Shown: positions 12,712-51,070 of the stretch, in pieces
Position numbering within the stretch: position 1 is the stretch's first letter
Layout of the letters: every line of letters begins with the position of its first letter
Origin: Gottschalkia acidurici 9a
GTDB taxonomy: Bacteria; Bacillota; Clostridia; Tissierellales; Gottschalkiaceae
Assembly: GCF_000299355.1 (NCBI RefSeq)
Contig: NC_018664.1
Coordinates: 2,927,993-2,991,992, forward strand
Length of the DNA stretch: 64,000 bases
Direction: 5' to 3'
Position numbers and translations under genes: made by a program
Notes under the pieces: generated by a model
Seen by the model: only the letters and a program-made list of their open reading frames with translations
What the model was told of the DNA's origin: nothing
The model's database searches: none

Positions 12712-12735
12712 TTATTTATGATACAGTTCTCCGTA
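12712..12735 (-). repeat. rlmH-type att repeat G (leftmost boundary)
   Basis: On the minus strand it ends ...TGTATCATAAATAA, matching the last codons of rlmH (Y-H-K-stop). It continues leftward into ordinary chromosome and rightward into CCGTA, then an AAAGGATGCCTTTTTT-like segment shared with other copies. It marks the outer end of the proposed cassette array. Apart from this copy and the blaI remnant, 12511-13339 is AT-rich and empty. Confidence 0.65.
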
Positions 12736-12929
12736 CCTTGTGTAAAGGATGCCTTTTTTTACTTTTATATTTACTTACATTAATTCATACATTTAAATCC
12801 TTATATAATTCTCTCTAATATTATTTATAACCATTGTCTAAATAAATTAATATGTTTAAGAGCCTAGAATCACCTGTTTATTCTTTCATATATTTCTATT
12901 TTTCCTTTTCATTCAAGTTAGTCTTGACT

Positions 12930-13241
12930 TTTCCAATTTACAATTGTAGACTTCATTGTATAGAGGTTATGAAACTTCTTTAGGAAAATAGTCCTTTGTC
13001 TGATAGTGAAATTATATCTTCTTTATCAGATAAAATGAGTTGGTCACACCAAACTATAAAAACTTTCATAAATAAACTTCTAAATAAGCAAGTAATATCA
13101 TTTGAGAAATCTAGGAGAAGTTATCCTTACTATCCTTTAGTTTTTTATAATGGGTATGTAAAATCAAAAAATAAGTCTTTTCTTAAAAAAGTCTTAAAGA
13201 TATCTTGTTATATGAGGATGAATCAGTGCAATATGGAATGA
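12930..13241 (+). pseudogene. BlaI/MecI-type repressor, broken by a TAG codon
   Basis: The translated frame reads EVMKLL-stop-ENSPLSDSEI and goes on through MSWSHQTIKTFINKLLNK and SRRSYPYYPLV, which is the winged-helix region of BlaI/MecI beta-lactamase repressors (consensus EVMKxLWExxPL). The TAG at 12981-12983 replaces the conserved Trp. There is no good start before it and the C-terminal dimerisation region is lost after residue 70. The usual partner, an M56 sensor peptidase, is absent; a DUF4367-like gene follows instead. It is a decayed regulator. Confidence 0.7.
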
Positions 13242-13339
13242 CTATATTAAATATTTTCAAATCTTTTATAAATATTAGCTAAAAGCAAAACCTTAGCTTA
13301 TATTTTTATGAAAATAGAAACCAAATTGAAAGGAGAATT

Positions 13340-14733
13340 ATGATGATAAAACATTTTAAAAAAGGTTCTTATAAAATGTCTGCTATGAGTATTGCGGTAC
13401 TTACGTTACTTGGTTCTGTGACCGTAGCAAGTGCTGACAATAACATACTAAACCCTAGTACAGATGCATCTGTAAGCCAAAATGTAATAAAAAAAGATGA
13501 TGATGACTTTAAGTTATCAGATACTAAATATGAGTTTGATCGTTTAGATAGAGTGCACGATTTTGTAAACTTTGAATTTAAAGTTCCTACTTATTTACCA
13601 TCAGAATATAATTTACTTAATATAATTGTTAATGGAGTTGCTAATGGTACTACACATAGAACTATTGATAACTTAGTAAGTATTAATTTTGTTAAAGACT
13701 ACACTGGCTATTTTGCTCCTAGAAAACAATTCGAGTTTTTAGTGTCTAACGAAACTCTTGTACCTCATTTAAAAGATATCTATGAAAACTACCATTATAG
13801 ATCTAGTTCTAATGAAGCTATTAATGTTACAGTAAACTATAGTGAAGAGCCTATGACTATTTCTAATGTAAATGGTATAAATCTCACGATAAAAAGTGAC
13901 CATATTGCTGAAGAAATAATAGAGAACTTTGGTACTGATAGCCAAAAGGTAGTAAAACTTGATAAGCCTAAAGAAAAAGGCAAAAAGTTATCTAAATACT
14001 TTATATGGAATAACGAAGGCATATGGTATGGAGTTCAATATTATCATAAGTATGAAAGCATCGATTCACCTGAAAATAACACTTATTTTGAAGAGCTTCA
14101 GAAGAATGATATAGAGCAAATGGTACTTTCTCTAACAAATTCTAAAAACATACCTAAAGATATATATAAAGATAAATATACATCTGTAGATGAACATTAT
14201 GATACTGGTATAAGAATATATAATAAGAAAGATTTAATAAGAAAGATTTAATAAGAGCTGGAGATATTCTTGGTTTTTCACCTAAGTTTCCTTTAACTTT
14301 ACCGAAAAATCTTGTACCTAAAATGTCTCTTACAAGTGAAGGTTATAACCCAAGTTATCCTGATGAGTTTCAACGTATATTAACACTTGAAACATTTTAT
14401 AGTGATGGAAAAAAAGACATCATTCCAGCATCAATGGTACGTTTTCGTCAAGGAAAAAATGCCTACTATTATGATCTTTTAGAAAAAGAACTTAAAAATC
14501 CTGACTCCAAAGAAGTGAAAGATGCTAACGCCAGATTAATAACAATAGATGGAATCCAAGTTATTTCCTATGTGTATAAGAATGGGACTGATGTTACAGA
14601 TCAACTTTATATGTGGAAACAGGGTGGAATTCTAAACCAAGTAAGATTCCCTAAAGAACTTCTTGCATATGAACAAGATGCTTTAAACGAAGTGGAGGAT
14701 CATGAGGAGATAGTAAAAGCTCTCATGAAGTAG
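13340..14733 (+). pseudogene. Secreted DUF4367-like protein, frameshifted by a 14-bp tandem duplication
   Basis: The first frame (13340-14251) gives a signal peptide cleaved near VASA-DN, then a stretch FEFKVPTYLPSEYNLL typical of DUF4367 domains found next to BlaR1/M56 systems. It stops after KKDLIRKI. The unit AATAAGAAAGATTT is present twice (14222-14235 and 14236-14249). Removing one copy joins the frame to the second ORF through LIRAGDILGFSPKF, to the end at 14733, about 460 residues in all. The start has AAGGAG 4-7 bases upstream of two adjacent ATGs. The sequence is otherwise undamaged, so the break is recent or reversible. The function of the domain is unknown. Confidence 0.8.
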
Positions 14734-14817
14734 TTTATTTAACCTATTAAATTTTATTGTTAAATACTAACCAGATAATTCTTGTCAAATTAGAGATATA
14801 TTTTATCTTTTTTACCA

Positions 14818-14847
14818 ACTATAAAGGTCTTCATAGACCTTTATAGT
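14818..14847 (+). terminator. Terminator after the DUF4367-like gene
   Basis: Perfect stem ACTATAAAGGTCT / AGACCTTTATAGT with a 4-base loop followed by TTTT. Confidence 0.85.
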
Positions 14848-14871
14848 TTTAATGAAATATTAATATTACAT

Positions 14872-14960
14872 TATAAAATCTAATTATTATATTTTTAGGG
14901 ATTCGATAGTGTGAACTTAAAGACAAAAGTTAAAAATCTAAAAGATTTTGATGTTTAAAA
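14872..14960 (+). pseudogene. Remnant of the 5' end of a UvrC-like gene (copy of 27.42-27.66 kb)
   Basis: The first 28 bases and the GTG-start region match the leader and start of the UvrC-like gene at 27458. The match then jumps about 50 codons ahead to the stretch encoding VKNLKDFD. The jump falls on the direct repeat TTAAAAATCT, which occurs at both places in the intact gene, so the remnant looks like a deletion between short repeats. It lies beside the intact DUF924 gene. Confidence 0.7.
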
Positions 14961-14994
14961 AATTAAAATGCTTAATATATTAAGCATTTTAATT
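14961..14994 (-). terminator. Terminator after the DUF924 gene
   Basis: Stem AATTAAAATGCTTAA / TTAAGCATTTTAATT with a short loop and T-rich flank, between the UvrC remnant and the DUF924 stop. Confidence 0.7.
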
Positions 14995-15067
14995 TTTAAT
15001 ACTTTTCACTTTGTTTTGGTAACTTTTCAGCATATAGTGTTAATGCAATGGATGGTATTTCATTAGT

Positions 15068-15649
15068 CTAAAAACTGCTGCCAGGTTGTTTCAAAAATTC
15101 AATCTCTTCTGGAGTGGATTCACGATTGAGAGCTTTATTACGATGAGGATAACGACCAAATCGATCTATAATTTCTTTATGACGATATTCATATTCAGCT
15201 GTTTCTTTATCAGATAACTCTTCAAATAGAACAACTGCTTGTTCATGTATTCCAGATGATTCTGAATGCATAAACGGCATAATCATAAACTTCTTTTCTT
15301 CTTCTAACATTTCAGTAAAGCCAGGTTGTCTTATCGCCTCCTGAGATAAGACTAGGGCCATTCCATCCTGAGTAAATGCACACGCCTTTTGACGACATAA
15401 GTTTCTAGAAAACTGGTCTAATACAATAATTTCTGCTAAACGCCCATATAGTGATACACGCCAGTCCGATAATAGTCCCTGACATCCACTTTGCCAGATA
15501 TCATAAAACTTATCGTATATTTCATTATCAAAAGCTTCATCTTTTTTAAACCAGTAAGGTTTATTTTTTGGATTAAACCAGAAATCTAGAACCATCTTCC
15601 ATGGCTCATTTGAAAAGATTACCTCTTCTTTATCACTTATTTCATTCAC
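15068..15649 (-). CDS. DUF924 family protein
   Basis: 193-residue soluble protein of a family with no assigned reaction; its fold is related to TPR-like helical bundles. Family marks are VLDFWFNPKNKPYWFKKD near the start, LAEIIVLDQFSRNLCR in the middle, MPFMHSES, and RFGRYPHRNKALNR near the end. The GTG start at 15649 has GGAGG about 9 bases upstream. A degraded second copy lies at about 27 kb. It is unlikely to be essential in an accessory region; its role is unknown. Confidence 0.88.
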   Translation of the reverse strand: MNEISDKEEVIFSNEPWKMVLDFWFNPKNKPYWFKKDEAFDNEIYDKFYDIWQSGCQGLLSDWRVSLYGRLAEIIVLDQFSRNLCRQKACAFTQDGMALVLSQEAIRQPGFTEMLEEEKKFMIMPFMHSESSGIHEQAVVLFEELSDKETAEYEYRHKEIIDRFGRYPHRNKALNRESTPEEIEFLKQPGSSF

Positions 15650-15821
15650 AGAAGTTCGCCTCCATTTCTTTTTTATCTTATATTAAATACGGTATTTTTT
15701 AACAATGTATTCTTGTTAATCATATCATATTATATTTTCTATAATTAGTCTAATATACAGTACATTTCTTCATTAAGATTCTACAGCTTCAGTGATACAA
15801 ATAATTAACAAGCTATATCAT

Positions 15822-15840
15822 TTACTTATGATACATTACT
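15822..15840 (-). repeat. Possible rlmH-type att half-site H
   Basis: TTACTTATGATAC matches the conserved core of the other copies, but the following bases (ATTACTTG) diverge. It could be an old scar separating the DUF924 and DUF6179-like segments. A chance match is possible. Confidence 0.35.
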
Positions 15841-15873
15841 TGATAGCCAAAGTGACTTCGATCTTTAGATTTT

Positions 15874-17229
15874 TTATTTATAATGTATTCTTTCTCTAAG
15901 CTTTCTTATTGCTATCTGTTCCTCTTCACTCAAACTCATCATATACTTTTTAAATTCATAATGCCATTCTTTTTCATATTCATCTTCAAAAGTTAAATCA
16001 TATATATCCTTAGATAAAAGAATAATTTCAATTTGAGATAAGCTTTTAAAGTAATAAATATACTCATCTCCAAATAAACAATCCGCGCTTAACATATCTA
16101 CTAAATCTTCCATACTCTTAATTTTATTTTTAATTAATGTAATTTTATCTTCAATTAAAGAGCAATCCCGAATTTCTTCACTTAACTTTTTAAATTCAGT
16201 ATTTGTCATTTTCTTTCCATCAATATATTCAATTGCTTCATCCTCATTTCCCTCATCAAAAGATATAAATACTGTCTCTAATCTATTCAATTCTATGCCT
16301 TGGCTTATTAGCGAAGTTACTTTTAATGTTGACTTTTTAATATAGTTTATCAATGCTTCGTTTTTAATACTTAAAGTACTACAGCATGTTTTTGCATGTT
16401 GTAATAACTCTTCTTGTAATTTTTCTAAAGATAACTTTTTTAACTTATTTTTTATATACTTTCTTTCAGTATCATTAATACTAAGATTATTCAAATCCCT
16501 TCCACAGATGATTACTCCTAGTGAATTAATTAATAGTAATTCAAATACATTTATTAATAACAGTTCACATTTTTTATCATAGCTCTTTAATAACTTGTTT
16601 ATTTCATCAATGTTAAAATTATTACAGAACTCATTTTCTAAGTTCAATTTATCTAAATAGTTATATATATATTCAACACCTGTATATTTTATATTATCTA
16701 TACAAAGCTGATAATCTATTGATCCTGAAGTTTCATGAGCAGCAAAAAAAATATCATACTCTTTAAAAAACAACTTAAGTCCATAGTATATAGTATCGTT
16801 ATATGAGTAGTTATCGATTCTAAGCTTGTCATCATTAATTTTATTAAACAATTTCTTACACTCTAATACTTGTGCACTAATTAAATCCTGACCCGTTTTT
16901 AGTATATCTGATAATCTAGTATGCTTTAACTCGTCTATTAACATATCCATATTATCAAAAGTTTTTAAGTAAATTCCTATAGTATAGTCAATGCATTGTA
17001 AAATATTTTCAGCCACTTCTACCATAACTGAACTACTCTCATCTTTTGTATAATATTCTAACTTTACCTTTAGAAGTTCCATTCTTTCATAATGGATATT
17101 GCTTAAAACATTTTCATCTAGCTTTCCTTTCTCATAACAATTCACTAAAACATCCTTAAAAAAATATTCATCACTAAAGCTATCTCTTGTAAGATGATCA
17201 TATTCTTGAATATTGCTAACGTTTCTCAT
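15874..17229 (-). CDS. Uncharacterised 451-aa helical protein (DUF6179-like)
   Basis: No catalytic motif is visible. The protein is acidic, almost entirely helical and rich in Leu, Ile, Lys and Asp; it has no signal peptide or membrane segment, so it is cytoplasmic. It ends in the pattern MSLSEEEQIAIRKLRERI. Together with the smaller gene just upstream it resembles the clostridial pair annotated DUF6179 plus DUF6323, from memory and not by search. The two genes are only six bases apart and surely co-transcribed. Function unknown. Confidence 0.6.
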   Translation of the reverse strand: MRNVSNIQEYDHLTRDSFSDEYFFKDVLVNCYEKGKLDENVLSNIHYERMELLKVKLEYYTKDESSSVMVEVAENILQCIDYTIGIYLKTFDNMDMLIDELKHTRLSDILKTGQDLISAQVLECKKLFNKINDDKLRIDNYSYNDTIYYGLKLFFKEYDIFFAAHETSGSIDYQLCIDNIKYTGVEYIYNYLDKLNLENEFCNNFNIDEINKLLKSYDKKCELLLINVFELLLINSLGVIICGRDLNNLSINDTERKYIKNKLKKLSLEKLQEELLQHAKTCCSTLSIKNEALINYIKKSTLKVTSLISQGIELNRLETVFISFDEGNEDEAIEYIDGKKMTNTEFKKLSEEIRDCSLIEDKITLIKNKIKSMEDLVDMLSADCLFGDEYIYYFKSLSQIEIILLSKDIYDLTFEDEYEKEWHYEFKKYMMSLSEEEQIAIRKLRERIHYK

Positions 17230-17235
17230 ATTATA

Positions 17236-17703
17236 TCAATCCTTTTCATTATCAAGATTTGTATAATCTTTTACACCACTTCTTATATTGTCAGCAATCT
17301 TATATAATGCTTTTCCTTCTAAAAGCTCCAGTGATCCCTGACAATAGTTATTAAAACTCTCTTTCATAATTTCTATTAGTTCATCATCACTTATATAATC
17401 TAGGGTTTCGTTCTTATAGTTATAAAAAATCTCCACAAGTTCATTTATTGTATCACTATAATTATATTGTGATATATATGGAGAATCACAGAAAGCTATA
17501 ACAATTTTATTTATAATTTGACCATTAAATTCTATCCTTCCACTTTTCTTAAGTGCTATATTTCTCGTTTTAATAATTTCTTTGACATCTTCTGTAGAGA
17601 GCTTTAATCCATATTCACTTGTATGTTCATTACACTGGAGTATGTCATTAAAAACTTGCTCCTCTAGTAAGTTATTCTTAAATAAATCAATAAAATCTTT
17701 CAT
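17236..17703 (-). CDS. Uncharacterised 155-aa protein (DUF6323-like), partner of the 451-aa gene
   Basis: Small cytoplasmic protein, first gene of a two-gene operon. A TTG at 17721 is possible, but AAGGAAG stands 7 bases before ATG 17703, so that start is preferred. It shows repeated patterns of Ile, Asn and Glu and the segment IMKESFNNYCQGSLELLEG, which recalls DUF6323 proteins; this link is from memory. No enzymatic residues stand out. The pairing with the larger protein suggests a complex. Confidence 0.6.
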   Translation of the reverse strand: MKDFIDLFKNNLLEEQVFNDILQCNEHTSEYGLKLSTEDVKEIIKTRNIALKKSGRIEFNGQIINKIVIAFCDSPYISQYNYSDTINELVEIFYNYKNETLDYISDDELIEIMKESFNNYCQGSLELLEGKALYKIADNIRSGVKDYTNLDNEKD

Positions 17704-17828
17704 ATTAAAACTTCCTTTCAAAATTTATTGACTTTCATTTAGAAATGTGATATGATTAAAATATTATGATATAATTGCTATAATAGTGTATTTTATCATT
17801 TATGTTTTCCGTTGTCAATATTGTATAT

Positions 17829-17866
17829 AAAAAAGAGTATCTATATAATCAAGATACTCTTTTCTT
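17829..17866. terminator. Terminator-like hairpin in the 17.7-18.3 kb gap
   Basis: AAAAGAGTATCT paired with AGATACTCTTTT, T-runs on both sides. The remainder of this 580-base gap is AT-rich. A short minus-strand stretch at about 18060-18115 reads like protein (GKPKFHLDQTIGLTW) but has no start and may be a gene scrap. Confidence 0.6.
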
Positions 17867-18302
17867 AGTTTATTGAATAATTCTTTTCACTATTATCCAA
17901 AGTATAACCTTAGACAATTTTAATATAATATTTTTAAAAAACTTGTGAAATATAAAGTGTTGAATTTTACTAGCTTTATTACTTCTAAATTTATATATTC
18001 AATAAAGTACTTCTTATATAAATCTAATATTTTTTTATGATCATTTTAAATAAACCTTTAGTAGACTACTCCACGTCAATCCTATAGTTTGATCTAGATG
18101 AAACTTTGGTTTTCCAAATAACTCATATCAACAATTTAAGAAAAGACTATTTCATTTATATTATAGTATTCAAGTTAAAACTAAAGCTTCCGTAGATGAT
18201 GACTATAGTTGTTGTATGCTTTTTTCTCTTAGTTAACTTCAATGGTAAAAACAAAGAATTCCTTAAACTTATACAATTCCCTATCTGGCATATTGTTCTT
18301 AT

Positions 18303-19148
18303 CTAGCAATTTATTTTTGACATTTTCAACTGATACTCTTCTAATGATATATGGCCTCCGGCAAATTGATTTTCTAGTATTGTCATCTTTTCAGTTTTTG
18401 TTAAAACCCTTTCATTGTCAATATTAATAGCATTTTCTTCACCTTCCAGAGGAGCTAGTATATGCTTAAGTTTATCATATGCTTCAAAATATCGAAGTCC
18501 AAATATTCTTTGTGAAGCTGCATTTAAGTGAATACCGTCTGGATTAGGTGTTAATCCTGATGCTGTCACAAAGTAGCAGTTCTTATGTGTATTAGCAAAC
18601 TGTAGAAGTTCCTGATTAATTTCGGAATATTCAGGAAAATATTCACCTAAAAAACCTTCTCCTAAATAGTCTCCAATTCCACCCATGATAATAGGTATAT
18701 CTGGCTCACCAAGTTGTTTACGAAATTCTTCAGTAATTTTTAAAAACTTCTCATGATAAAGTTTATAGAGCCCCGACATAGAATCACTTTCACCTTGATG
18801 CCATAGGATTCCTTCTAATTTACTATTTTGCTGAGCTAATTTTGCCTGTAGTATAGCATGCTTAAATAACGATCCATCTACTGACCAATCATCTAAGCTT
18901 GCACCACCTTCGGCACAAGGTATCAATCCTATTTCTTCATTTTTATTTTCTCTACACCATGCAGCTGCAAAAGAAGCAGCGGGACCAATACCAGCATAAG
19001 GTCTATCATAGTTTATAGGTTCCATCATGATTTGCCATAGCCCATTACGTAACACTTTTATATGTTCATTACAAATTATAGGAACATCTTTTAAAAATCC
19101 ACGACCAGCCATATTCGATTGACCAACCATCAAAAAAGAATGTATCAT
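18303..19148 (-). CDS. SGNH-type esterase (sialate O-acetylesterase/CE6-like) with a SHOCT-like tail
   Basis: 281-residue cytoplasmic hydrolase predicted to remove O-acetyl groups from sugars. The SASA-domain marks are all present: GQSNMAG with nucleophile Ser11, GPAASFAAAW, IPCAEGGASLDDW, WHQGESD, and the catalytic DGIHLN. The last 30 residues (TILENQFAGGHISLEEYQLK) resemble a SHOCT motif, an unusual appendage that is normally an oligomerisation or membrane-protein tail. The ATG has GGAGG 9-10 bases upstream. It stands alone. Confidence 0.85.
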   Translation of the reverse strand: MIHSFLMVGQSNMAGRGFLKDVPIICNEHIKVLRNGLWQIMMEPINYDRPYAGIGPAASFAAAWCRENKNEEIGLIPCAEGGASLDDWSVDGSLFKHAILQAKLAQQNSKLEGILWHQGESDSMSGLYKLYHEKFLKITEEFRKQLGEPDIPIIMGGIGDYLGEGFLGEYFPEYSEINQELLQFANTHKNCYFVTASGLTPNPDGIHLNAASQRIFGLRYFEAYDKLKHILAPLEGEENAINIDNERVLTKTEKMTILENQFAGGHISLEEYQLKMSKINC

Positions 19149-19471
19149 AAATATTTTTCCTCCTTGTATTTATCAAGAATTCTTTACAAATTAATTTTTC
19201 GTTATTCAAAATATATGAATTCTTTGATTATAGTTATTATTTCTTCTCAATAAAAAATATCAATCTTAGTATTTGATAATATTTTTAAAGTTATTTAGTC
19301 TAATTCCAATATAGTCTAGAACATCTTTTTCCTTAATGTAATTTTTATAAAATATTTGTTGAATGTATATTAGGACTTGCTATAAAGTACTAATGAATTA
19401 TACATTTATTTTATAATTTAAAGCACTATAATCACAGTCTTAAAAATAGATATATTTATTTTTTCCTATCT

Positions 19472-19508
19472 AAAAAAGAGATCTTACCAAAATGGTAAAA
19501 TCTCTTTT
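19472..19508 (-). terminator. Terminator after the CD3324-family gene
   Basis: AAAAGAGATCTTACC / GGTAAAATCTCTTTT stem with a 5-base loop and a T-run, immediately past the stop. The gap 19149-19471 holds nothing I recognise. Confidence 0.8.
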
Positions 19509-19511
19509 GCT

Positions 19512-19769
19512 TCATTTTTTCACTATTTTTCTTACTGAATCATATGATAAACAATATTTCTTAGCGATATCAGTTATTGTCGCTCCATTTTTATATTGAT
19601 TGATTATCTCACTATTACGCTTCTTATAATATTCTCTTGAACCACTATTCTCTCCCCACTTACGTTTTTCCCTATTAGTCGGAATGTATAGTAGCTCCCC
19701 ATCTACATAGTTCAAAATTTCGTTCAATAACTCTTTTGGAAGCACATCTGCTGCATTAATATATTTCAT
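19512..19769 (-). CDS. CD3324-family helix-turn-helix protein
   Basis: 85-residue DNA-binding protein. The N-terminus MKYINAADVLPKELLNEI and central GELLYIPTNREKRKWGENSG are the hallmark of the CD3324 family of clostridia. The C-terminal ATITDIAKKYCLSYDSVRKIV is a helix-turn-helix of the Mor/resolvase type. The start has GGAG upstream. Targets are unknown; family members are scattered near transporters and mobile regions. Confidence 0.85.
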   Translation of the reverse strand: MKYINAADVLPKELLNEILNYVDGELLYIPTNREKRKWGENSGSREYYKKRNSEIINQYKNGATITDIAKKYCLSYDSVRKIVKK

Positions 19770-20023
19770 ATCCCTACTCCTTTACTTAACTAGTTAAATA
19801 AAGTGCAGAATTGGCAGCTAATGCAACTTTTTATCCCACGCAGTTCGTTGCATTTCTACTATTCTGCATGGGTATAAGCACTATGTAGTTTATTTTCATA
19901 TTTCAGTTTCATAAACATACTACCACCTCCAAAATCGTCGAATTAATACATGTTGTTAGTATATCATACTTAGTATTTCTATAAGTTTTTTAATATTTAA
20001 TTTCATGTAGATATTTTTCTTAT

Positions 20024-20036
20024 TTATTTATGATAA
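20024..20036 (-). repeat. Weak rlmH-like half-site
   Basis: TTATTTATGATAA matches only the YHK-stop portion of the repeat and lacks the ACCGTA half. It is noted as a possible scar between the HTH gene and hisS. The rest of 19770-20097 is AT-rich and unremarkable. Confidence 0.2.
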
Positions 20037-20097
20037 GGCTAATCGCAATAGATATAATATAGACTTTTATTTCTTTAATAAGCATTAAATTTATCAT

Positions 20098-21393: not shown

Positions 21394-21428
21394 CTCATTC
21401 ACTCCATATCTAATTTTATTTCTGCACA

Positions 21429-21463
21429 ACAAAAAACCATGTAGGCAAATATCCCACATGGTT
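21429..21463 (-). terminator. Attenuator terminator of hisS
   Basis: On the minus strand AACCATGTGGG pairs with CCTACATGGTT around a short loop and is followed by TTTTTT, about 35 bases before the hisS start. It can stop transcription before the gene and is the output stage of the leader described at 21553-21603. Confidence 0.85.
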
Positions 21464-21478
21464 CAATAAATTATGATT

Positions 21479-21533
21479 GCACTTAATTTATCATCACCTA
21501 GAGATACAAGCCTACTCAAATAGACTTGTATCT
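21479..21533 (-). promoter_or_regulatory. hisS leader RNA stems that pair with the His codons
   Basis: Three pairings are visible. CTCTAGGTGATGAT (21503-21490) complements the His codons and stop of the leader peptide (21563-21551) with one bulge. TAAGTGC (21485-21479) complements GCACTTA inside the leader reading frame. AGATACAAG/CTTGTATCT (21502-21533) forms its own hairpin. A ribosome stalled on the His codons would break the first pairing. Which freed strand blocks the terminator is not resolved by eye; GTAGGC near 21513 can pair with GCCTAC of the terminator arm. Confidence 0.7.
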
Positions 21534-21552
21534 GCCTCAACAGACCAAGTCT

Positions 21553-21603: not shown

Positions 21604-21632
21604 AATATTCCTCCTAAATTTATTTTAGTAAC

Positions 21633-21661: not shown

Positions 21662-21733
21662 TCATATTATTTTTTGTATTATTTATTCATATATCAAAAT
21701 AATTTATATCAACATCTCAAGTAAAGTTCTCCT

Positions 21734-26779: not shown

Positions 26780-26796
26780 TTAGATTAGTTAATATA

Positions 26797-42420: not shown

Positions 42421-44512
42421 CGTAACAACCTCTTAGTCGCACAGCCCAATCGTTTGCTTTCTGTTCATCATCAAACCAATACTCGAATAACTGTGGAATA
42501 ATTTCATATTCTATTACTTCCTCTACACGATTTAGAGTATCTACTTTATAAGAACTCCCTACAAAATAACTATGACCAATTTGAAAGCCTGTCCCTAACT
42601 CTTCCGTTATTCCGTTATTTAAGCTTCTAATTTCATCAATAACACGATTTAAAACTTCCGGATTATCTAATTCGTTTACATACGACTTAAATGTATCATT
42701 TTGGAACGCTGGTTTAATTTCAAAAAACGAAAATCTCCTTCTAAGTGCATAGTCTAATAAAGCTAAGCTTCTATCTGCCGTATTCATCATTCCAATAATG
42801 TATAAATTCGAGGGTACAGAGAATTTATCATTAGAATAAAGGAGATTAATATGCATGTCTCGCTTATCATCCTCGATAAGCATCATTAATTCTCCAAATA
42901 TTTTACTCATATTCCCTCTATTAATTTCGTCAATAATAAAAAAGTAATCTCTTTCCGGATCTCGTGCTGCTTTTCTTGCAAATTTTACAAACGGACCTTG
43001 TTTCAGTTCAAATCCTTCTCCTTCAGCTTTTGGACGGAATCCTTCAATGAAATCCTCATAACTATAGCTTTGATGGAACTGAACCATATGAATACGTGTT
43101 TCATCTTTTTCTCCCATCATCACGTGTGCTAATCGTTTAGAAATGAATGTTTTACCTACACCTGGTGCACCTTTTAAAATAAGATTCTTCTTATTTTCAA
43201 GTAAAGAAATTAGACGTTCAAGTTCCTGCCTTTCAATAAAAACCTCCGAAAGAAATTCATCAGTAGTAAAGGATTCATTTTCTTGTATAGTGGGCTTAGA
43301 TTCAATAAAGCGAATGTAATAGTCGATTGAACTACCAGATATACCTTTATATTTTTTGTAAGATTCATCTGATAAAACGATAGCTTTCAACTGTTTTTGC
43401 TGCTCAATATCTGTTTCTCCAAAAATTGAAACGTCAAAATGACGCTCTATATCCCTTAACGCATTTACTTTTTGAGTAACTGTTTTATCGTTCAAGCTAA
43501 CTCCTATATCAGTAACTTGATTGGATAACCAAGTTCGAAATTCATTTACTTCAGCATCTTTTGGATCAATAAAACCTCCATTTATTACTTGCTCAATTTC
43601 TTGAATAAAACTTGGATAAGAATTAAGGCATGTTAACGTTTTTTGAGCAAAAGTCTGATGAATTTCTCACTTTCCAACTTGATGCCACTCTACTTTTCTT
43701 CTATGTTTATGCTCTGATGCTGCCTCATCGAAGTAGTAATCTCCTGTAACAATTCCGCGCGCTATAATTCTTTTAGTTCCTTCTTTTGCATACACAATGT
43801 CCCCTATTTGAATTTCACGATAGAAATCCCACACAGCCTTTGTATCATTAATAGGGCGCACTCCATCTGACCTTTGCTCAGTTATTTTTCTCTCAACAGC
43901 TTCCTTTGAGTCATAGTTTTTCAAATCCCCTAAATAATCCCAACCGACTGTAATCATATCTTCTGTCTGAAACTGATTCCACAGCCTCGATTGTTCACCT
44001 GCAGAAATTAGCCAATAATTAATGCTGTTATCAATCTCACCTTCCTGATTCGCAATTTTTTTCTCCTTTTTAGGATAAGTTAAAGTAGAATTTTCATCAT
44101 AATATAAAAATATTAAATATGATCGCATTAAAACGCCCCAGTCAGGTATCCCACCTAAATTGCTAGGCTTACTTCTTTCACCGCGATTAAATTCATCTTC
44201 TGCATATCTTTTTCTAAATTGAAGCCTTGTTGTACCATACTTTTCGGGATATCGTGGTGTACTTTTACCAGTTACTAATCTCTCAATATCCTCATCACTT
44301 TGTTCCGTCATTTGTTGGTAGATATTTTTAAACTCCGAGTATGTTTGGTAATCAAAGAAATTTTCCTTATAGCTGCTAGCTAATCCATACTTCTCTAGCA
44401 GGTATCCGAGTTTTTCAAGATATGGCGTGTACCAGCTACCTGTTAATTCCCCTAAATTTTCCGTAACCCAAGCTCTATATTTTTCTTTTCGAATATTCGA
44501 AACGATGCTCAT
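42407..44512 (-). pseudogene. mcrB: McrB with EVE-like N-terminal domain, split by one TGA codon
   Basis: One reading frame of 702 codons runs through this region with a single stop, TGA at 43667-43669, at the position of a Trp in VEWHQVGK-W-EIHQTF. Residues 1-281 hold an EVE-like domain (WLISAGEQSRLWNQF, GDIVYAKEGTKRIIARG). The rest is AAA+ GTPase: Walker A LKGAPGVGKTF, FFIIDEINRGN, and MNTADRSLALLDYALRRRF. A 362-residue product could restart at TTG 43495, which has AGGAG 5 bases upstream, keeping the motor. The system is either crippled, works without its recognition domain, or uses read-through. Confidence 0.85.
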
Positions 44513-44759
44513 AACACACCCCCAAAAATAAAGTTATTTCATTAAATTAGATCACTGTACTACTTTAAAATTAAATTTATTTAACAGTTTGGTTCCTTAT
44601 TATACCTAGATGATAGTATGCTCTAAACAAATCGTTTTAGAAAAGCGCCTTAGTAATCATTGCTTTTTAAAACTTTGTATTTCTTTTATTTATAATAATT
44701 ATTAGTAAACTCAATAGTGATATTACAAGAGTAATTAATATAGGATTAAAAATCCTCCT

Positions 44760-44783
44760 TTATTTATGGTACGGTTCACCGTA
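44760..44783 (-). repeat. rlmH-type att repeat C
   Basis: Plus strand TTATTTATGGTAC-GGTTCACCGTA. Over 21 bases it differs from the present rlmH end at only two positions, the closest of all copies. The dyad TACGGTTCACCGTA is perfect. The remainder of 44513-44866 holds no gene. Confidence 0.85.
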
Positions 44784-44812
44784 TTTCTTTAACTGCAATT
44801 TATACCTAAATA

Positions 44813-44852
44813 AACTAGAACACCATACTTAACATATCTCTGGTGTTCTAGT
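44813..44852 (-). terminator. Terminator after the zinc-ribbon gene
   Basis: ACTAGAACACCA / TGGTGTTCTAGT, 16-base loop, just beyond the stop at 44867. Confidence 0.7.
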
Positions 44853-44866
44853 CCAAATAATTATCC

Positions 44867-45139
44867 TTACTTAAAAGCCATCCATGACCTTTCTCCAGTT
44901 TTCAAGTAGTCATCAAGTTCTGCATCTGTCTGAAATTGCCATAAGTCAACATTAGTCACTGCACTTCCCCCTAATTTCTTGTGAACATACTCACATAATA
45001 CAGTATCACATACTCCTTTATGAACAGTAATTCCCTTATAATACTCTTTATTTAATCTTACTATTACAGCAAGGTCTTCTTGTCTGTCAACTGGCTTCTT
45101 ACAAACTTCACAAATATATTCTTTACCCAACTCTAACAC
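44867..45139 (-). CDS. Small zinc-ribbon protein of unknown function
   Basis: 90 residues. A CEVC pair near residue 10 and a later GVCDTVLC could bind one zinc. The C-terminus QFQTDAELDDYLKTGERSW is acidic. The start is ATG 45139; a GGGTG-type ribosome site is weak. No family recognised. It sits between att repeat C and the recombinase remnant, so it may be cassette cargo. Confidence 0.55.
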   Translation of the reverse strand: MLELGKEYICEVCKKPVDRQEDLAVIVRLNKEYYKGITVHKGVCDTVLCEYVHKKLGGSAVTNVDLWQFQTDAELDDYLKTGERSWMAFK

Positions 45140-45298
45140 CCCTATCTTTCATTTTATATAATCTAACTAAATAATAGATGCTAAGGAATACTATGTCAAC
45201 CTTTGAAAATATTAAATTATCTATTGTTAAAACCTTTTTTATTCTATTGCTAAAATTAATTTAATATCAGCTTAATATAAATAGCTATATTATTTTAT

Positions 45299-45568
45299 CT
45301 ATATCGCTATTCTAAAAACAAAATTAGGGGAACTCTCATCTGAGAGTTCCCCTAATTCACCTTTATTTGAGTAGCTATCTATTATTCTAGTTATAGCCTG
45401 ATTAAAGTGTATGTGAATTTTTTTAATTTTACCACCTTCAACAGTTATCTTTTCTACTAGTATTTTTAGAAATAGCTTTCTTTGTTCTGGTTTCGCTTTA
45501 CTTATTAATTGATTAAAGTTATTTATAGCAGTTTTTACTGCTTTATAAGGTATTTCATGTAGTTTCAT
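45299..45568 (-). pseudogene. C-terminal remnant of a large serine recombinase
   Basis: The frame FNQLISKAKPEQRKLFLKIL, then VEKITVEGGKIKKIHIHFNQ, matches the end of large serine recombinases of clostridial elements. The catalytic domain with its Ser and the zinc/coiled-coil regions are missing. A perfect palindrome (45326-45357) overlaps the last codons and may serve as terminator. Whether it was the cassette's own recombinase is an inference. Confidence 0.6.
45326..45357 (-). terminator. Palindrome at the end of the recombinase remnant
   Basis: TTAGGGGAACTCTCA pairs with TGAGAGTTCCCCTAA around TC. It lies within the final codons of the remnant, so it is protein coding and hairpin at once. 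Confidence 0.5.
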
Positions 45569-45607
45569 GGTTTGTTAGTTACGTATAAATCGAATAATTT
45601 TTATCCA

Positions 45608-45656
45608 ACTATAATGTTATAATTTAATTAATCCGTTATTTACGGATTTCATAGGA
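45608..45656 (+). promoter_or_regulatory. Promoter and operator of the XRE regulator
   Basis: A TATAAT-like box at about 45611 is followed by the dyad ATCCGTTATTTACGGAT (45631-45647) and then AGGAGG. This position fits autorepression by the XRE protein. Confidence 0.55.
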
Positions 45657-45664
45657 GGAATATT

Positions 45665-46021
45665 ATGATTGGTAAAAGAATTAAGGAACTTAGGGTAGAT
45701 TATGGATTGTCTTTAAAACAATTATCTGAGAGAATTGATATATCTATATCATTCTTAAGTGATATTGAAAATAATAGGAGTAATCCCTCTTTAGATAGGC
45801 TTAAGGATATAGCTAAAGGGCTAAATACTACTGTTTCTTATCTTATTGGAGAAAGTGAAAATTCTTTTGTGCTAAAAGATACTTTACTTAATGATGATGA
45901 AATACAGAAAATTCTAAAGGAGCTTTCTTGTTTGGATTATTGGAGTAGTGAGGATAAAAAGGAGCTGTTATATTATCTAAGGGCTAAAAATTTTATTGTA
46001 AAGTCTAATAATAGAAAGTAG
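45665..46021 (+). CDS. XRE-family helix-turn-helix regulator
   Basis: 118 residues. Residues 1-60 are a Cro/CI-type domain (RIKELRVDYGLSLKQLSERI, SFLSDIENNRSNPSLDRL). The C-terminal part is helical and may dimerise. GGAGG 7 bases before the ATG, with a dyad operator in the leader. It stands divergent to the recombinase remnant and in the cassette with the type IIG system; it may act as control protein of either. Confidence 0.85.
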   Translation: MIGKRIKELRVDYGLSLKQLSERIDISISFLSDIENNRSNPSLDRLKDIAKGLNTTVSYLIGESENSFVLKDTLLNDDEIQKILKELSCLDYWSSEDKKELLYYLRAKNFIVKSNNRK

Positions 46022-46052
46022 CATAATTAGCTAACAATTGTATCTCTTAATA

Positions 46053-46094
46053 TATAAAATCTCCTATTCTTTCTATTAAGGTAGGGGATTTTAT
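46053..46094. terminator. Bidirectional terminator between XRE gene and the 120-aa gene
   Basis: ATAAAATCTCCTA / TAGGGGATTTTAT with a 16-base loop and T-runs both ways, between two convergent genes. Confidence 0.75.
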
Positions 46095-46113
46095 CGAATT
46101 TTTAATCTCATTT

Positions 46114-46476
46114 CTAATCTACTATTGAATCTATTATTTTTTCTGGAACAATTGGTATAGGCATTATTATAGAAACTCCGAAGTCATTATTACAAAGAAT
46201 GAGTGCATTTATCCAGTCATTATTATTTTCTACTTTTATTCTATCTACATATTCATAAATCGTATCATTTATATCTATGTGAATATCTTTTAACTTCTTA
46301 AACTCATCTTTTGATTCAATTATTAATATATATCCTCCAATATCATAATCTATATCTCTACATTCTCCATACTCAGTATCAAGAATAGTTGCTACGTCTT
46401 TAATTACTTTAATCACTTCTTCTGGTAGGTTTTTCTGTATATATTTTATATCTCTAACATGACCTATCTTAAACAT
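46114..46476 (-). CDS. Uncharacterised 120-aa acidic protein
   Basis: Starts at ATG 46476 with AGGAGAGG 5 bases upstream; the frame is open 30 codons further up without a ribosome site. Sequence is soluble and acidic, opening MFKIGHVRDIKYIQKNLPEE. I recognise no family. It is the last of a row of same-strand genes after the type IIG enzyme and DUF1643 gene, so it may be an accessory of that defence module. Confidence 0.6.
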   Translation of the reverse strand: MFKIGHVRDIKYIQKNLPEEVIKVIKDVATILDTEYGECRDIDYDIGGYILIIESKDEFKKLKDIHIDINDTIYEYVDRIKVENNNDWINALILCNNDFGVSIIMPIPIVPEKIIDSIVD

Positions 46477-46569
46477 TATTACCTCTCCTTTAGTTTTAGA
46501 GTGTTTGTGTTTTACCGTTTTTTCGGCTCGAAAGTTTCGTGTTTCCTTTCCCTTACCAAGAGGCAAAGA

Positions 46570-46605
46570 AAGCCCAAGAAAGCTGTTTTAATGGCTCTCT
46601 TGGGC
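46570..46605 (-). terminator. Terminator at the end of the DUF1643 gene
   Basis: AGCCCAAGAAAGC pairs with GGCTCTCTTGGGCT; the T-run follows on the minus strand. Confidence 0.7.
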
Positions 46606-47165
46606 TATTTGTTTTCCTCTTCTTGCTTTTCTTCCATCTCCAGACTTATCTTTTTCAGATTCCATCCAAACCTTATTTGTGGTGCTAATGGATGAAATCC
46701 TGCTCTTCCAATACTATCTTCTATGATGTAAAACTTATCTTTATGCTCTTCTAATAGTTTTAGTACTTCTTCTTGTCTTTCTTTTATCTTTTTATTATTC
46801 TCATCAACCTTTCCCCAAGCAATAATTATGCTATCAACTTTTATAGCAGATTTTAGTATTTGGCTGTCATTTTCTCCATCTACCAAGCCATCTGTATTGT
46901 CTTTTGTACTTATTCTAATATTTATTTTTGAAAATATATTAACTATATCAACTGAACCAAATTCTAATTTAGAAAGATTATTTACTACATACATAGTAGT
47001 ATGGTCTATTATTAGTCCATCAGCAGAACTAGGATTAATCATTATAACCATAGACTTTTTCTTGTTTTTATCCCATTCTTTTCTTAGAAGATATCTATGT
47101 AACCTATCTCCTGAAAATATAGCTTCTGTTCTTATTATACTTTTTTCTGTAGCTAGCAAATCCAA
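46605..47165 (-). CDS. DUF1643 family protein
   Basis: 186 residues. DUF1643 marks: RYLLRKEWDKNKKKSMVIMINPSSAD, then DHTTMYVVNNLSKLEFGSVDIVNIF, and IIAWGK. The reaction is unknown; members often sit beside restriction or phage-defence genes, as here, 450 bases after a type IIG enzyme. The start ATG at 47165 follows the upstream 124-aa gene by 15 bases, so they form an operon. Confidence 0.85.
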   Translation of the reverse strand: MDLLATEKSIIRTEAIFSGDRLHRYLLRKEWDKNKKKSMVIMINPSSADGLIIDHTTMYVVNNLSKLEFGSVDIVNIFSKINIRISTKDNTDGLVDGENDSQILKSAIKVDSIIIAWGKVDENNKKIKERQEEVLKLLEEHKDKFYIIEDSIGRAGFHPLAPQIRFGWNLKKISLEMEEKQEEENK

Positions 47166-47180
47166 TCATCCCCTTATGAC

Positions 47181-47555
47181 TTATAAGCTATTTATAAACC
47201 TTTTTCTGACGTCTGATGAATCTTTTCTTTTTTCAAGTTGTATTTGTAAAATCTTTCTAAATATTTCTTCTTTCATATATATTCTAATTGTAACTAATCT
47301 AACATTGAAGTTTTTTGTTAAAATCCACACTATCCCAAGATTACATATTCCAATATCTACAACTTCAAATTTCATCATGTTTTCCATACCTAATTCATAA
47401 GCAAATTCTATTATATTGTCACACATTTTTATCTGTGAAATTATATTGCCTAAAGTGCCTACTTTAAATAATCTTCTATTGAAGTAACTTTCAACTTCAT
47501 CATTACTAGACAATTTACAATTAATGAATAAAGATTCTCTATTAATTACTTTCAT
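47181..47555 (-). CDS. Uncharacterised 124-aa protein upstream of DUF1643
   Basis: Start ATG 47555 with AAGGAGG 6 bases upstream. The frame extends to 47594, but that ATG falls in the terminator of the preceding gene. No signal or membrane helix. It contains EESYFNRRLF-like and KKRKDSSDVRKRF basic ends. Co-transcribed with DUF1643. No family recognised. Confidence 0.6.
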   Translation of the reverse strand: MKVINRESLFINCKLSSNDEVESYFNRRLFKVGTLGNIISQIKMCDNIIEFAYELGMENMMKFEVVDIGICNLGIVWILTKNFNVRLVTIRIYMKEEIFRKILQIQLEKRKDSSDVRKRFINSL

Positions 47556-47575
47556 TTGTATCCTCCTTAAATAAT

Positions 47576-47615
47576 AAAAAACCCCAATCCACATATTAAT
47601 GGATTGAGGTTTTTT
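47576..47615 (-). terminator. Terminator after the type IIG gene
   Basis: AAAAAACCCCAATCCA / TGGATTGAGGTTTTTT, 8-base loop, 2 bases past the stop. Confidence 0.88.
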
Positions 47616-47617
47616 AC

Positions 47618-50600
47618 TTAATTAATACCTAATTCTTCATCAAATATTTTATATCTTTCCTTTTCCTTTTTTCCCTGCATTTTTTTTAAAATCTGTTCTT
47701 GAACTTGAATGGGAGGTACTGGAAACTTAATTTTCTTTAACTCACTTTGTAATAACTTACCTCCATTGGGTCTCCTTTTTAAATAACTGAAGTCTAATCT
47801 ATTAAAAATTTCTACTAAAAACTCTTCTTTAAGAATATTCTTGTTTACTCTAATAACATGAGCATGATTATTTACCCAAGATTTACCTTCAACTTTATAT
47901 GCTGTTTCTTTAAATTCATCCCAGCGTGCTCCGTCTTCACCAATTAAAACTAAATCTTCATCAAAAATATAGTCAGTAATTTTACCTACAACCCCCGAAG
48001 CACCATAATAAGGAATATCACCAGAAGTTCTGTCCGACTTTTTTACAGGCTTACGCATGTAGTCTAATATTTCTACCATATCTTCATTTTCCAATGACTC
48101 AATAGGATATTTATCAGTTGATAGATAAATATTTTCAAGTGCTTCAATAAATATCTTAGCTATAAATCTATCAGACGATAAATCTAGCATTTCATGTAGC
48201 ATCTCAATTTTTACATGTTTTACAAGATTACTATGGATTTCAGGTAAATCTTCTCCTAAATAATTTTTGTAAATATAAGTACTTACTTTCTCTATATTAT
48301 TCAATGAATTTTCATCGTAAAGCATCGAATTAATTTTTCTGTCTTTATTATTAGGATAAGGATGAATTCCCTCATATTTTCTTCTATCTGAATGTTCATA
48401 CCCAAGAAACATTAGTTCATCTTCTTTATCTTTAGAATTAGCAACTACTATTTTATTATTATAGGTAAGCATAAAAAACATCAGTTTTTCCACTTCAGTA
48501 TCAAAATGTTTTTTATCTGTTAATGTATTAATATACTCATCTAAATCAATTTCATCACTTAATAAGTTTAAATACTCACTAAAAATACTCTTATTATTAG
48601 CATAGTCAAAGTCACTCTTTTTACCTGGCTTTAAATTATCCAAAAACTCTTTTGCAATATTCTCAGCCATTTTCCATTCATCATTACTTCTTCTAATCAT
48701 AAATAAGTTGACTGTTCTTTGTCCTGTGGCAAGAAAAGTTTGCGTTCCAAACTCAACAATTCCAACTACCTTAAAATACTTAAGCATCAATTTTCTTGCT
48801 TTTGAATGTATACCTGAATTTAATAAAATTGTAGCAGGTAAAATTAAACTTGCATATCCACCTTCTCTTAATAAATGCTTAGCTCTCTCAATGAATAGAC
48901 ATTCAATATCATCACTTTTGTCACTTACTTCATCAAATAATTCAAAGCTATCCTGACTATCTTGGATTGTAAGTTTAAAGTTTTCTACCGAATATGGTGG
49001 GTTAGCCTCGAGAACATCAAAATTTCCATTATCAATATTCTTACTAGCTAAAAGTTTACCCCTATACTTATCTGAATCAAATTTATCTAGCCCGTCAGCA
49101 TAAAGAATATTTACATCCCCTTCTCCATTTAAGAAACATGCTATCTTAGATGTTTTAACTAATCTGAAGTCCTTTTCAATACCATATACAAATTCTCTAG
49201 TCCAATTAAATGAAGTCTGCCATCCTGACAATCTATCTATTTGTCTTCTACTTTTTAAGTCTTTATCTGTAAGTCTTTGCAATACTTCATCTATTCTCTC
49301 TATTCCTTCCGTTAAAAAATGTCCACTACCACATGCATAGTCAATTAAGTAGGGCAAAAAGAACTCTTCCCTTCTTTCAATCTTATCCTTAATAATTTTT
49401 TCATAAGGAATAGATCTACTGTTGAATTCAGCTATAGGCAGTGCAGTAAAAAACTGACCTGTTTCTTGTTTCATACCTATATTTAAAAGCTTCTCGAAAA
49501 AGTATCCTAAAAAGGGTTGTTTATGTGTTCCTTTTAACTCATATTTTTCTAGTAACTTAACAACTGATTTGACTATTTCAGCATTTTCTTTAAAAGTTCT
49601 TTCATCCAATATTTCTTTAAATGCAAATTCACTACTTTTATATATCCTAAATTGTTTAAAAAGATCTCGTATCTCTTTACTTACGTGATTTAGATCATGA
49701 GGAATTCTTGCTAAAACTTGATCTACTTCTTCACTTAATTCAACTAACTCTATATCTAAGTAATCTGTTACACCTGTTCTATAAAGCTTACTTAAACGTT
49801 CAAGTACTTGAACTGGTTCTTCATCAAATTTCCACTGAAATTCCATTTCATAATCTTCATCTACAGCTTGGTCTTCATCTACTATTTTACTTAAGATAAG
49901 GTTAAAAATAACATTGTATGCATTATTTTTATCAGAAATAACATTTCTCCTTAATATCTCAGCAAAAGTATTAAATATTGTTCCATCTATATTCTTATCA
50001 AATTTATCAACATCATAAATGCTTAGGGGTTGTAAATCTTTCTGCTTAATTCCTGAAAATTTTACATTATAAGGTGTTGAGTCCTCATCAAAAATTCCTT
50101 TTATTTGAAAATTCTTATCCCAGTTCTCATAAATTTCTTTTTGGTTTTTGCAAGAAATAAATCTTGACATCTCTATAATATTAGACTTATAACGAATACC
50201 ATTATTGGTCAAATTTGATGTGTAGAGTACAACAAACTTGGCATTCTTGTCATTAAGATAATAGTTAAACAACTGTTCTTTATTGTAATCATTTGTCATA
50301 ATAATTTTTTCAGCCGAATTATAAGGTTCTCCCCAAACTTTACAATCGATCATAATATAAGCTTTATCTGTTGTGTCTTTGACTAAAATATCTAGATATC
50401 CTCCTACCCTCCATCTCTTTTCAAGCTCAATTTGAGGTGGTGCATACCCTTTCATTAATAATCTATCAACACATTCCAATACCACGAGATTCTCCCTTTG
50501 ACTAAAGTTACATGTTGTCTCTCTACCTTTTGCAATATCATCTCCATAGTTTATTTTACACTTACTTAGTTCATCATTGCTCAAGTCAACAATAATAGTA

Positions 50601-50710
50601 TAACTACCATGTTTAGTATATTCTTTCTGCCAGCAACTAGTTTGACCTGATATTAAACTAAAATCTAACCCTGATAATGTTTGCTCTATAAAACTTTTAT
50701 TAAATGACAT
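47618..50710 (-). CDS. Type IIG-like restriction-modification protein (nuclease, N6-adenine methylase and specificity in one chain)
   Basis: 1030 residues. Order: N-terminal HSDR_N-type nuclease with RWRVGGYLDILVKD and YIMIDCKVWG (D...DCK core, about 105-140); helical linker; N6-adenine methylase with motif I LIDYACGSGHFLTEG and NPPY in VLEANPPYSVENF; C-terminal target-recognition domain (IPYYGASGVVGKITDYIFDE, RPNGGKLLQSELKKI) like half of HsdS. Such fused enzymes cut and methylate at a site set by the TRD. AAGGAGG 8 bases before the ATG. It is the main cargo of the cassette between att repeats C and A. Confidence 0.88.
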   Translation of the reverse strand: MSFNKSFIEQTLSGLDFSLISGQTSCWQKEYTKHGSYTIIVDLSNDELSKCKINYGDDIAKGRETTCNFSQRENLVVLECVDRLLMKGYAPPQIELEKRWRVGGYLDILVKDTTDKAYIMIDCKVWGEPYNSAEKIIMTNDYNKEQLFNYYLNDKNAKFVVLYTSNLTNNGIRYKSNIIEMSRFISCKNQKEIYENWDKNFQIKGIFDEDSTPYNVKFSGIKQKDLQPLSIYDVDKFDKNIDGTIFNTFAEILRRNVISDKNNAYNVIFNLILSKIVDEDQAVDEDYEMEFQWKFDEEPVQVLERLSKLYRTGVTDYLDIELVELSEEVDQVLARIPHDLNHVSKEIRDLFKQFRIYKSSEFAFKEILDERTFKENAEIVKSVVKLLEKYELKGTHKQPFLGYFFEKLLNIGMKQETGQFFTALPIAEFNSRSIPYEKIIKDKIERREEFFLPYLIDYACGSGHFLTEGIERIDEVLQRLTDKDLKSRRQIDRLSGWQTSFNWTREFVYGIEKDFRLVKTSKIACFLNGEGDVNILYADGLDKFDSDKYRGKLLASKNIDNGNFDVLEANPPYSVENFKLTIQDSQDSFELFDEVSDKSDDIECLFIERAKHLLREGGYASLILPATILLNSGIHSKARKLMLKYFKVVGIVEFGTQTFLATGQRTVNLFMIRRSNDEWKMAENIAKEFLDNLKPGKKSDFDYANNKSIFSEYLNLLSDEIDLDEYINTLTDKKHFDTEVEKLMFFMLTYNNKIVVANSKDKEDELMFLGYEHSDRRKYEGIHPYPNNKDRKINSMLYDENSLNNIEKVSTYIYKNYLGEDLPEIHSNLVKHVKIEMLHEMLDLSSDRFIAKIFIEALENIYLSTDKYPIESLENEDMVEILDYMRKPVKKSDRTSGDIPYYGASGVVGKITDYIFDEDLVLIGEDGARWDEFKETAYKVEGKSWVNNHAHVIRVNKNILKEEFLVEIFNRLDFSYLKRRPNGGKLLQSELKKIKFPVPPIQVQEQILKKMQGKKEKERYKIFDEELGIN

Positions 50711-51005
50711 TTTATCAACCTCCTTTTGAACTGTATAAATAAATTATACTCTATTTTTCCAAAAAGTAAAGAACAGAGTTCTGTTTTTTTCGTTTTAAAC
50801 CATTATTTTATTCAAAACAGTTCTATGTTTAATCTTAAAAATATTAAAAGCCGCATTTATTTTTAATACGGCTCAACACTTCTTTGACTAAAAGCTTTAT
50901 TTCATTATAATACAGCTTGGCTTATATTCTATTATAGTAATATATCAGAATACAAAAAGAGATATTTAAAATTAAGTTTTTACATTAATTACTACCAAAC
51001 CTCTG

Positions 51006-51027
51006 TCACTTATGATATGTTTCCGTA
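51006..51027 (-). repeat. rlmH-type att repeat B, 22 bases from the rlmH stop
   Basis: Plus strand TCACTTATGATATG-TTTCCGTA. It shares TCACTTATGATATG with repeat D and lacks two bases in the middle. The gap 50711-51005 is AT-rich and has no gene. Confidence 0.7.
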
Positions 51028-51049
51028 TACACTATATAAAAAACCGCAG

Positions 51050-51070
51050 TTACTTGTGGTACGGTTCACC
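51050..51070 (-). repeat. Native att site A: 3' end of rlmH
   Basis: The last seven codons of rlmH, plus strand TTACTTGTGGTACGGTTCAC plus C, encode GEPYHK-stop. In staphylococci the equivalent GEAYHK-stop is the attachment site for SCC cassettes. Repeats B to H are copies of this sequence. Confidence 0.85.

Follow-up and report, generated by a model that had tools for sequence, protein, structure and literature searches.

A probable old composite array of SCC-family cassettes behind rlmH in Gottschalkia acidurici 9a

Elements of the staphylococcal cassette chromosome (SCC) family are known as the carriers of methicillin resistance in staphylococci. Integron arrays gather small co-directional gene cassettes, each with a recombination site, at a fixed entry point. 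SCC-like islands at rlmH have already been published outside staphylococci, as the accessible text of two papers describes (PMC6222049, PMC10061031). Here we analyse a 64,000-nucleotide stretch of Gottschalkia acidurici 9a (contig NC_018664.1; hereafter the window), in which the 38 kb behind rlmH are divided by copies of the last rlmH codons. These 38 kb are, with high probability, a composite array of SCC-family cassettes that would have been built by repeated site-specific integration, and our preferred reading of the window is an old array of this kind, whose element beside rlmH bore a recombinase and has since decayed. A preliminary description made from the letters of the window had proposed SCC-like stacking at the rlmH 3' end. 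We uphold that proposal: the target codons are the same, the dyad copies run one way, a ccr remnant is accompanied by a DUF1643 gene, and related genomes carry CcrB-like genes. The label 'clostridium' that came with it is loose, as the same order, Tissierellales at NCBI, includes Caloranaerobacter.

The window is close in form to a region of about 40 kb behind orfX (rlmH) in Staphylococcus haemolyticus WCH1. According to the accessible part of the source (PMC3637587), that region is of mixed origin, has several SCC terminal repeats and no ccr genes, and was interpreted by its authors as what is left of several SCCs or of a single composite one. WCH1 differs in having three terminal repeats and many IS431, where the window has six strong sites, a ccr remnant and a host from another class of Bacillota. 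ECC elements, in the accessible text of PMC6222049, likewise occupy the rlmH 3' region, with att repeats of about 50 bp, a dyad in attR and in the circle (inverted repeats are reported for both), the motif TATCATAA, and several attR copies in 16 of 32 elements. They carry intact ccrAB, span 21-78 kb, and have been shown to circularise and transfer, whereas the window has no intact recombinase. Bacillota SCC-like islands with PolA-SSB pairs, as far as the accessible part of PMC10061031 describes them, also place large serine recombinases behind rlmH; their second end is located via the last rlmH bases, and they include tandem composites, for example in Paenibacillus pinistramenti. Those islands carry a helicase and a recombinase, whereas the window blocks, and the 1-2 kb cassettes of its relatives, are mostly without them.

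The array starts at the last rlmH codons. The gene (a SPOUT methyltransferase; 51050..51529, minus strand; PF02590, E 5.8e-60) is the target; its C-terminus is GEPYHK-stop, and its last codons form an attB/attL-type site at 51050-51073 (minus strand, 38.1 bits). Five att-type dyad copies follow on the same strand, at 44760..44783 (54.6 bits), 40265..40288 (35.6 bits), 26923..26946 (42.9 bits), 21734..21757 (33.3 bits) and, at the distal array end, 12712..12735 (40.1 bits). The core G of the six sites lies at 12729, 21751, 26940, 40282, 44777 and, at the rlmH end, 51067. The scores come from a 46-column matrix built from the sites of many genomes, in a run without any own sites (175 of 180 seeds kept); the seed set includes array sites that are used later, own sites having been left out in this scoring run only. 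With the same matrix, both strands of the reversed window reach at most -3.5 bits, against which the five rlmH-tail repeats of the preliminary description, all in one orientation, stand firm. The 20-mer TTATGATACGGTTCACCGTA matches five times at up to three mismatches, on the plus strand only (12716, 21738, 26927, 40269 and 44764), with no match in 100 shuffles. A refined 24-mer on the rlmH coding strand, TACGGNGAACCNTAYCAYAARTRA, has seven matches in the whole genome at up to two mismatches, all on a single strand, and five of these form the window cluster.

Weaker copies were also scored. The one described earlier at 51006..51029 (minus strand), 44 bases from the rlmH end, does exceed the reversed control, though at a marginal 6.5 bits. 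A second marginal copy at 20024..20047 (minus strand, 6.6 bits), absent from the earlier list, would together with 21734 bracket hisS alone (up to 21733). The copy that had been proposed at 15822 scores -18.8 bits in the leave-own-out run, which is background, and we reject it. Elsewhere in this genome, a distant site copy at C2:2068354 has kept rlmH-like codons for FRIIMGEPYHK (the distant copies are loci L039 and L040).

By their sequence, the sites are short double-strand dyads. On the rlmH strand, the internal copies consist of TACGGT-GA-ACCGTA, a dyad about an asymmetric GA, followed by YCATAARTRA; the rlmH end reads GGGGT-GA-ACCGTACCACAAGTAA and is without the dyad. The window has, in SCC fashion, six strong att-type repeats in one orientation, five of them dyads. 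This anatomy fits serine-recombinase integration because the right half of the site is shared with rlmH and the dyad is confined to the internal copies; the left half would derive from the element, and the GA would be the crossover point. The copies might instead be dispersed repeats, terminators or hot spots of homologous recombination, with no site-specific integration involved. The right arms do often enter T-rich stretches, which some left arms mirror, in keeping with that explanation. Nevertheless, the copies bear rlmH codons, hold one orientation and cluster behind rlmH; the reversed 24-mer pattern at up to two mismatches has no match in the whole genome, and the reversed pattern has none in 60 relatives and none in 179 genomes of the order; and junctions between genera switch exactly at the core. 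We regard an origin of this sort as exceedingly unlikely.

Such a junction is seen when the rlmH end of one relative (G056) is compared with an internal site of another (G009), about 38 kb from rlmH. The two are 97.25% identical over 2.84 kb rightward of the core, and unrelated to its left, so that identity starts at the core. Moreover, when 22 loci, single or stitched, were compared, one two-gene cassette occurred in six genomes of four families (G030, G024, G016, G012, G056 and G009), at differing array positions; the G016 copy has a degenerate far site. Across nine array genomes, shared stretches have 67 3' ends, of which 19 come to within 60 bases of a site where 3.3 would be expected, and none of 2000 shifts gave a count as high (the ends are not independent of one another). 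The preliminary description had expected motif copies to coincide with presence/absence breakpoints; in related genomes, all of other genera, sites coincide with the 3' borders of shared blocks and not with the 5' borders. A separate observation concerns a 9.1-kb stretch directly 3' of rlmH in G031 (L221 2067-11157), which is 91% identical to one in G043 (L224 7930-17009). The G043 copy, in a single-contig genome, is 2.5 Mb away from rlmH and follows a site of opposite orientation; the pair would fit a chromosome-scale inversion between two sites.

The proximal block of the array (44784..51049) contains what is left of a recombinase. Positions 45299..45568 (minus strand) encode the C-terminal 89 residues of a CcrB-like large serine recombinase, matching the end of the CcrB-like recombinase of relative G011 at 42% over 89 residues (E 2e-17); the best match among the four intact recombinases of this genome has an E value of 1.6. 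Adjoining the remnant is a gene for a DUF1643 protein (46605..47165, minus strand; PF07799, E 1.8e-36), a type that is listed in staphylococcal ccr gene complexes in the accessible parts of PMC3983117 and PMC10581047. Because the ccr C-terminal remnant and DUF1643 are both present, this block is likely a decayed SCC-like element. The array as a whole is not an intact SCC element, because its recombinase is reduced to the 89-residue remnant. Plasmid records yielded no relatives of the remnant, and none of the G011 recombinase was confirmed in viral contigs. A 90-aa open reading frame (ORF) at 44867, tried as a homologue of the 99-aa G011 ORF between recombinase and site, gave no useful match.

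CcrB-like genes are present in related genomes. We scored the CcrB model NF047343 in the 60 relatives and the 179 genomes of the order (up to seven candidates per genome in the latter). Seven genomes from seven families have CcrB-like genes at 290-453 bits: G014, G011, G009 and G013 among the relatives, and G177, G121 and G060 among the genomes of the order. None attains the model cut-off of 900 bits, and we therefore call them homologues of CcrB rather than CcrB itself. Six of the frames are open, and that of G013 is interrupted by two stops. Every one of the seven shares a contig with rlmH or a site (G060 by the matrix only, at 24.8 bits), whereas none of the weaker CcrB matches (below 265 bits) shares one with a site, 0 of 49 in the 179-genome sample and 0 of 12 in the relatives. 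The G014 recombinase gene overlaps with the end of rlmH; next comes a helicase with DUF927 and a Cch helix-turn-helix (HTH) domain, and there is a site 5.9 kb further on. G011 has the same pair of recombinase and helicase (DUF927, Cch HTH) beside three sites, at intervals of one or two genes.

A different recombinase, using the same rlmH codons, could have inserted the blocks, with the CcrB-like genes as bystanders. This genome does have other candidates. The whole-genome search for ccr-like recombinases that the preliminary description had proposed turned up no CcrB-clade gene but did find four intact large serine recombinases, three at 135-141 bits to CcrB and one at 78. One of them, of 535 aa, lies about 1.4 kb past the right end of the window (L038 1358-2965). 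We do not favour it as the mover, because its 135 bits to CcrB resemble those of two others in the genome, against 290-453 for the rlmH-associated clade. It belongs to another clade, and adjoins a short ORF (both within L038 1358-3727) with the motif GTSMATP, which we take to be subtilase-like. In relative G050, moreover, a 688-aa large serine recombinase (L094 5626-8191) lies directly 3' of an rlmH that ends in GEPL-stop, not GEPYHK; it escapes the CcrB search at E 1e-50, and perhaps represents a second recombinase family using the same rlmH codons. Dyad copies, however, accompany the CcrB-like clade in all seven cases and the weaker matches in none of 49, and the window's own remnant belongs to that clade. 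We consider the bystander explanation very unlikely.

If cassettes were stacked here by integration, a CcrB-like large serine recombinase would bring the att site of a circular cassette together with attB, the 3' end of rlmH, and cut at the asymmetric GA within the dyad TACGGT-GA-ACCGTA. On joining, the cassette would restore the last rlmH codons, and a dyad copy would stay at its far end. Each new cassette would enter beside rlmH, so that the stack would grow in one orientation. Blocks without a recombinase would be moved by an enzyme supplied in trans. The acting enzyme, the position of the cut and the order of arrival are those that we infer.

Several results pull the other way from a stack of SCC-family cassettes. 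The chief one is the asymmetry of the borders, at odds with cassettes neatly bounded on both sides: of 66 5' ends of shared stretches, 5 fall near sites where 3.2 are expected (P 0.22), so that two-sided cassette borders are unsupported on the 5' side. Exchanged leaders, described below, may explain part of this asymmetry. An NCBIfam scan of the ccr remnant gave no match. This genome holds no intact CcrB-clade recombinase and no Cch-type DUF927 helicase; the preliminary description was right that neither an intact ccr-type recombinase nor a helicase is present, and had overlooked the remnant. Two of the seven genome-wide 24-mer matches are far from rlmH (C2:402594 and C2:2061958). A CcrB-like gene of the rlmH-associated clade is present in only 3 of 13 array genomes (G009, G011 and G013). 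Finally, the genomes compared, 60 relatives and 179 of the order, include no second genome of the window's genus.

Related bacteria have similar stacks of far smaller blocks, some of them common to several families, that end at the same site copies. The 24-mer at up to two mismatches is found in 36 of the 60 relatives, or 34 without G022 and G059, where it is the rlmH end only; matches in some further relatives are rlmH ends too. At up to one mismatch it is found in 32 of the 179 genomes of the order, a sample more than half of which is family f4, with a match in two f4 genomes (G121 and G123). Where genomes come in one or two contigs (this one, G009, G032, G040, G043 and G051), there are 25 sites apart from the rlmH end, and 20 of these are found in rlmH orientation no more than 60 kb downstream of the gene. 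We delimited 48 cassettes, each with at least one ORF of at least 100 aa, in 13 genomes chosen for their arrays (the arrays of G024, G027, G033, G040 and G043 and one G017 contig were left out). They measure 0.75-6.1 kb, with a median of 1.8 kb, and 93 of their 99 ORFs of at least 100 aa run in the rlmH direction. Among the 119 ORFs of at least 80 aa in relatives' cassettes are genes for acetyltransferases, nucleotidyltransferases, HepT-like proteins, hydrolases and Fic proteins, and some that match candidate defence genes. In three families (f7, f14 and f10) most cassettes begin with some 100 conserved bases, a leader with GGACAAGCTATG and, further on, a promoter-like TATAAT and GTATAAGTA. 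In the arrays of these families (L078, L079, L076, L077, L080-L082 and L089) it comes after most sites and resembles a built-in cassette promoter.

Four relatives also have second, diverged rlmH-like genes, with 31-52% identity in pieces (G001:C1:415946-416344, G002:C14:45225-45641, G003:C20:18718-19116 and G009:C1:2247905-2248204). The second genes of G001 and G002 have a site at their end or immediately 3' of it.

These small cassettes suggest another explanation, which overlaps with stacking of SCC-family cassettes: an integron-like serine system that would normally carry small cassettes free of recombinases and take them in at one fixed point, the rlmH end, with CcrB-like elements as an occasional source of enzyme. 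The window would then be an old array of merged or enlarged blocks. We regard this as a tentative possibility, somewhat short of an even chance. The relatives' cassettes resemble those of integrons in being small, co-directional and gathered at a fixed entry, rlmH. They differ in the type of site, in an enzyme that is (by association) a serine and not a tyrosine recombinase, in the promoter-like leader of many cassettes in three families, and in borders that are site-bound on one side only. The small size and common direction in 13 genomes, the two-gene cassette at differing positions in six genomes of four families, and the leader that opens most cassettes in two array-bearing families of the order all speak for such a system. 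The one-sided borders speak against it, as does the window itself, whose five blocks between six sites measure 4.5-13.3 kb (median 6.3 kb) and have 19 ORFs in the rlmH direction and 9 opposite. The direction bias is not a general rule either: among the matches listed in a wider sample of named Bacillota (61 cassettes), it weakens to 89 ORFs with rlmH against 39, a count that leaves out 5 of 117 loci (L103, L130, L143, L157 and L163) from genomes already used. Among the same listed matches, 47 of 48 multi-site loci have a single site orientation, and the median spacing is 2.2 kb. Moreover, 10 of the 13 array genomes are without a CcrB-like gene of the clade, and the mobility of the cassettes is read from their sequences. 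The evidence on an integron counterpart with a serine enzyme is divided, with sizes, direction and reshuffling for it, and one-sided breakpoints and missing enzymes against. Our literature search, which covered no preprints and few subscription papers, found no account of small recombinase-free cassette arrays at rlmH that are shared across families.

In the composite SCC-family array of the window, the cargo is varied. When 40 ORFs from the array and its surroundings were scanned with Pfam, neither a recombinase nor an SCC-type helicase came up (the ccr fragment came from another comparison), and no tyrosine recombinase appeared in this set, no genome-wide search having been aimed at these enzymes. 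The proximal block contains, besides the ccr remnant and DUF1643, an HTH gene and a type IIG-like restriction-modification protein with methyltransferase and type I specificity domains (47618..50710, minus strand; PF02384, PF07669, PF01420). The next block (40289..44759) contains an McrBC pair (41374-42420 and 42407-43495; PF10117, PF07728) and a gene of the L-2-amino-thiazoline-4-carboxylic acid hydrolase family (40523-41023; PF14196). The largest, of 13.3 kb (26947..40264), has GIY-YIG, isochorismatase, LysR, permease, sigma factor, sugar transport, ornithine cyclodeaminase family and TrmB genes. It also has a truncated second copy of DUF924 (26974..27272, minus strand; seen as direct repeats D10, D1 and D2 and by alignment), starting about 34 bases from the core of the site at 26940; the full gene is at 15068-15649. 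The two regions carry reciprocal remnants in swapped order, an intact DUF924 with a short GIY-YIG remnant at 14869-15649 and a DUF924 remnant with an intact GIY-YIG at 26974-28546.

The block at 21758..26922 contains a HelD-like motor (21898-23952; NF041464, 536 bits), a TetR fragment (23999-24307) and a CLC-family channel (24704-26779). This last gene had been described as a fluoride exporter, and its match is to the CLC family only. The distal block (12736..21733) has DUF924, DUF6179, DUF6323, a SASA esterase and a second hisS (20098-21459; 389 bits, against 531 for the main hisS at C2:1803819). In G011 a hisS, 32% identical to that of the window, likewise lies 3' of an array site.

If this account is true, rlmH would serve Bacillota at large as a port of gene exchange, rather than being a peculiarity of staphylococci, and the recombinase-free blocks of 1-2 kb in relatives would be a source of the small pieces in composite SCC islands. 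It can then be tested directly whether cassettes that lack a gene for a CcrB-type recombinase are mobilised by such enzymes. It is conceivable, though we would not yet bet on it, that Bacillota have a serine-recombinase counterpart of the integron. The rlmH 3' end would then be a general entry site for recombinase-free cassettes of one to three genes, many with a promoter-like leader, which would accumulate there, change order and move between families; SCC-type elements would now and then donate the enzyme. SCCmec would be one large, enzyme-bearing form of this wider cassette economy, and the window one of its ageing arrays.

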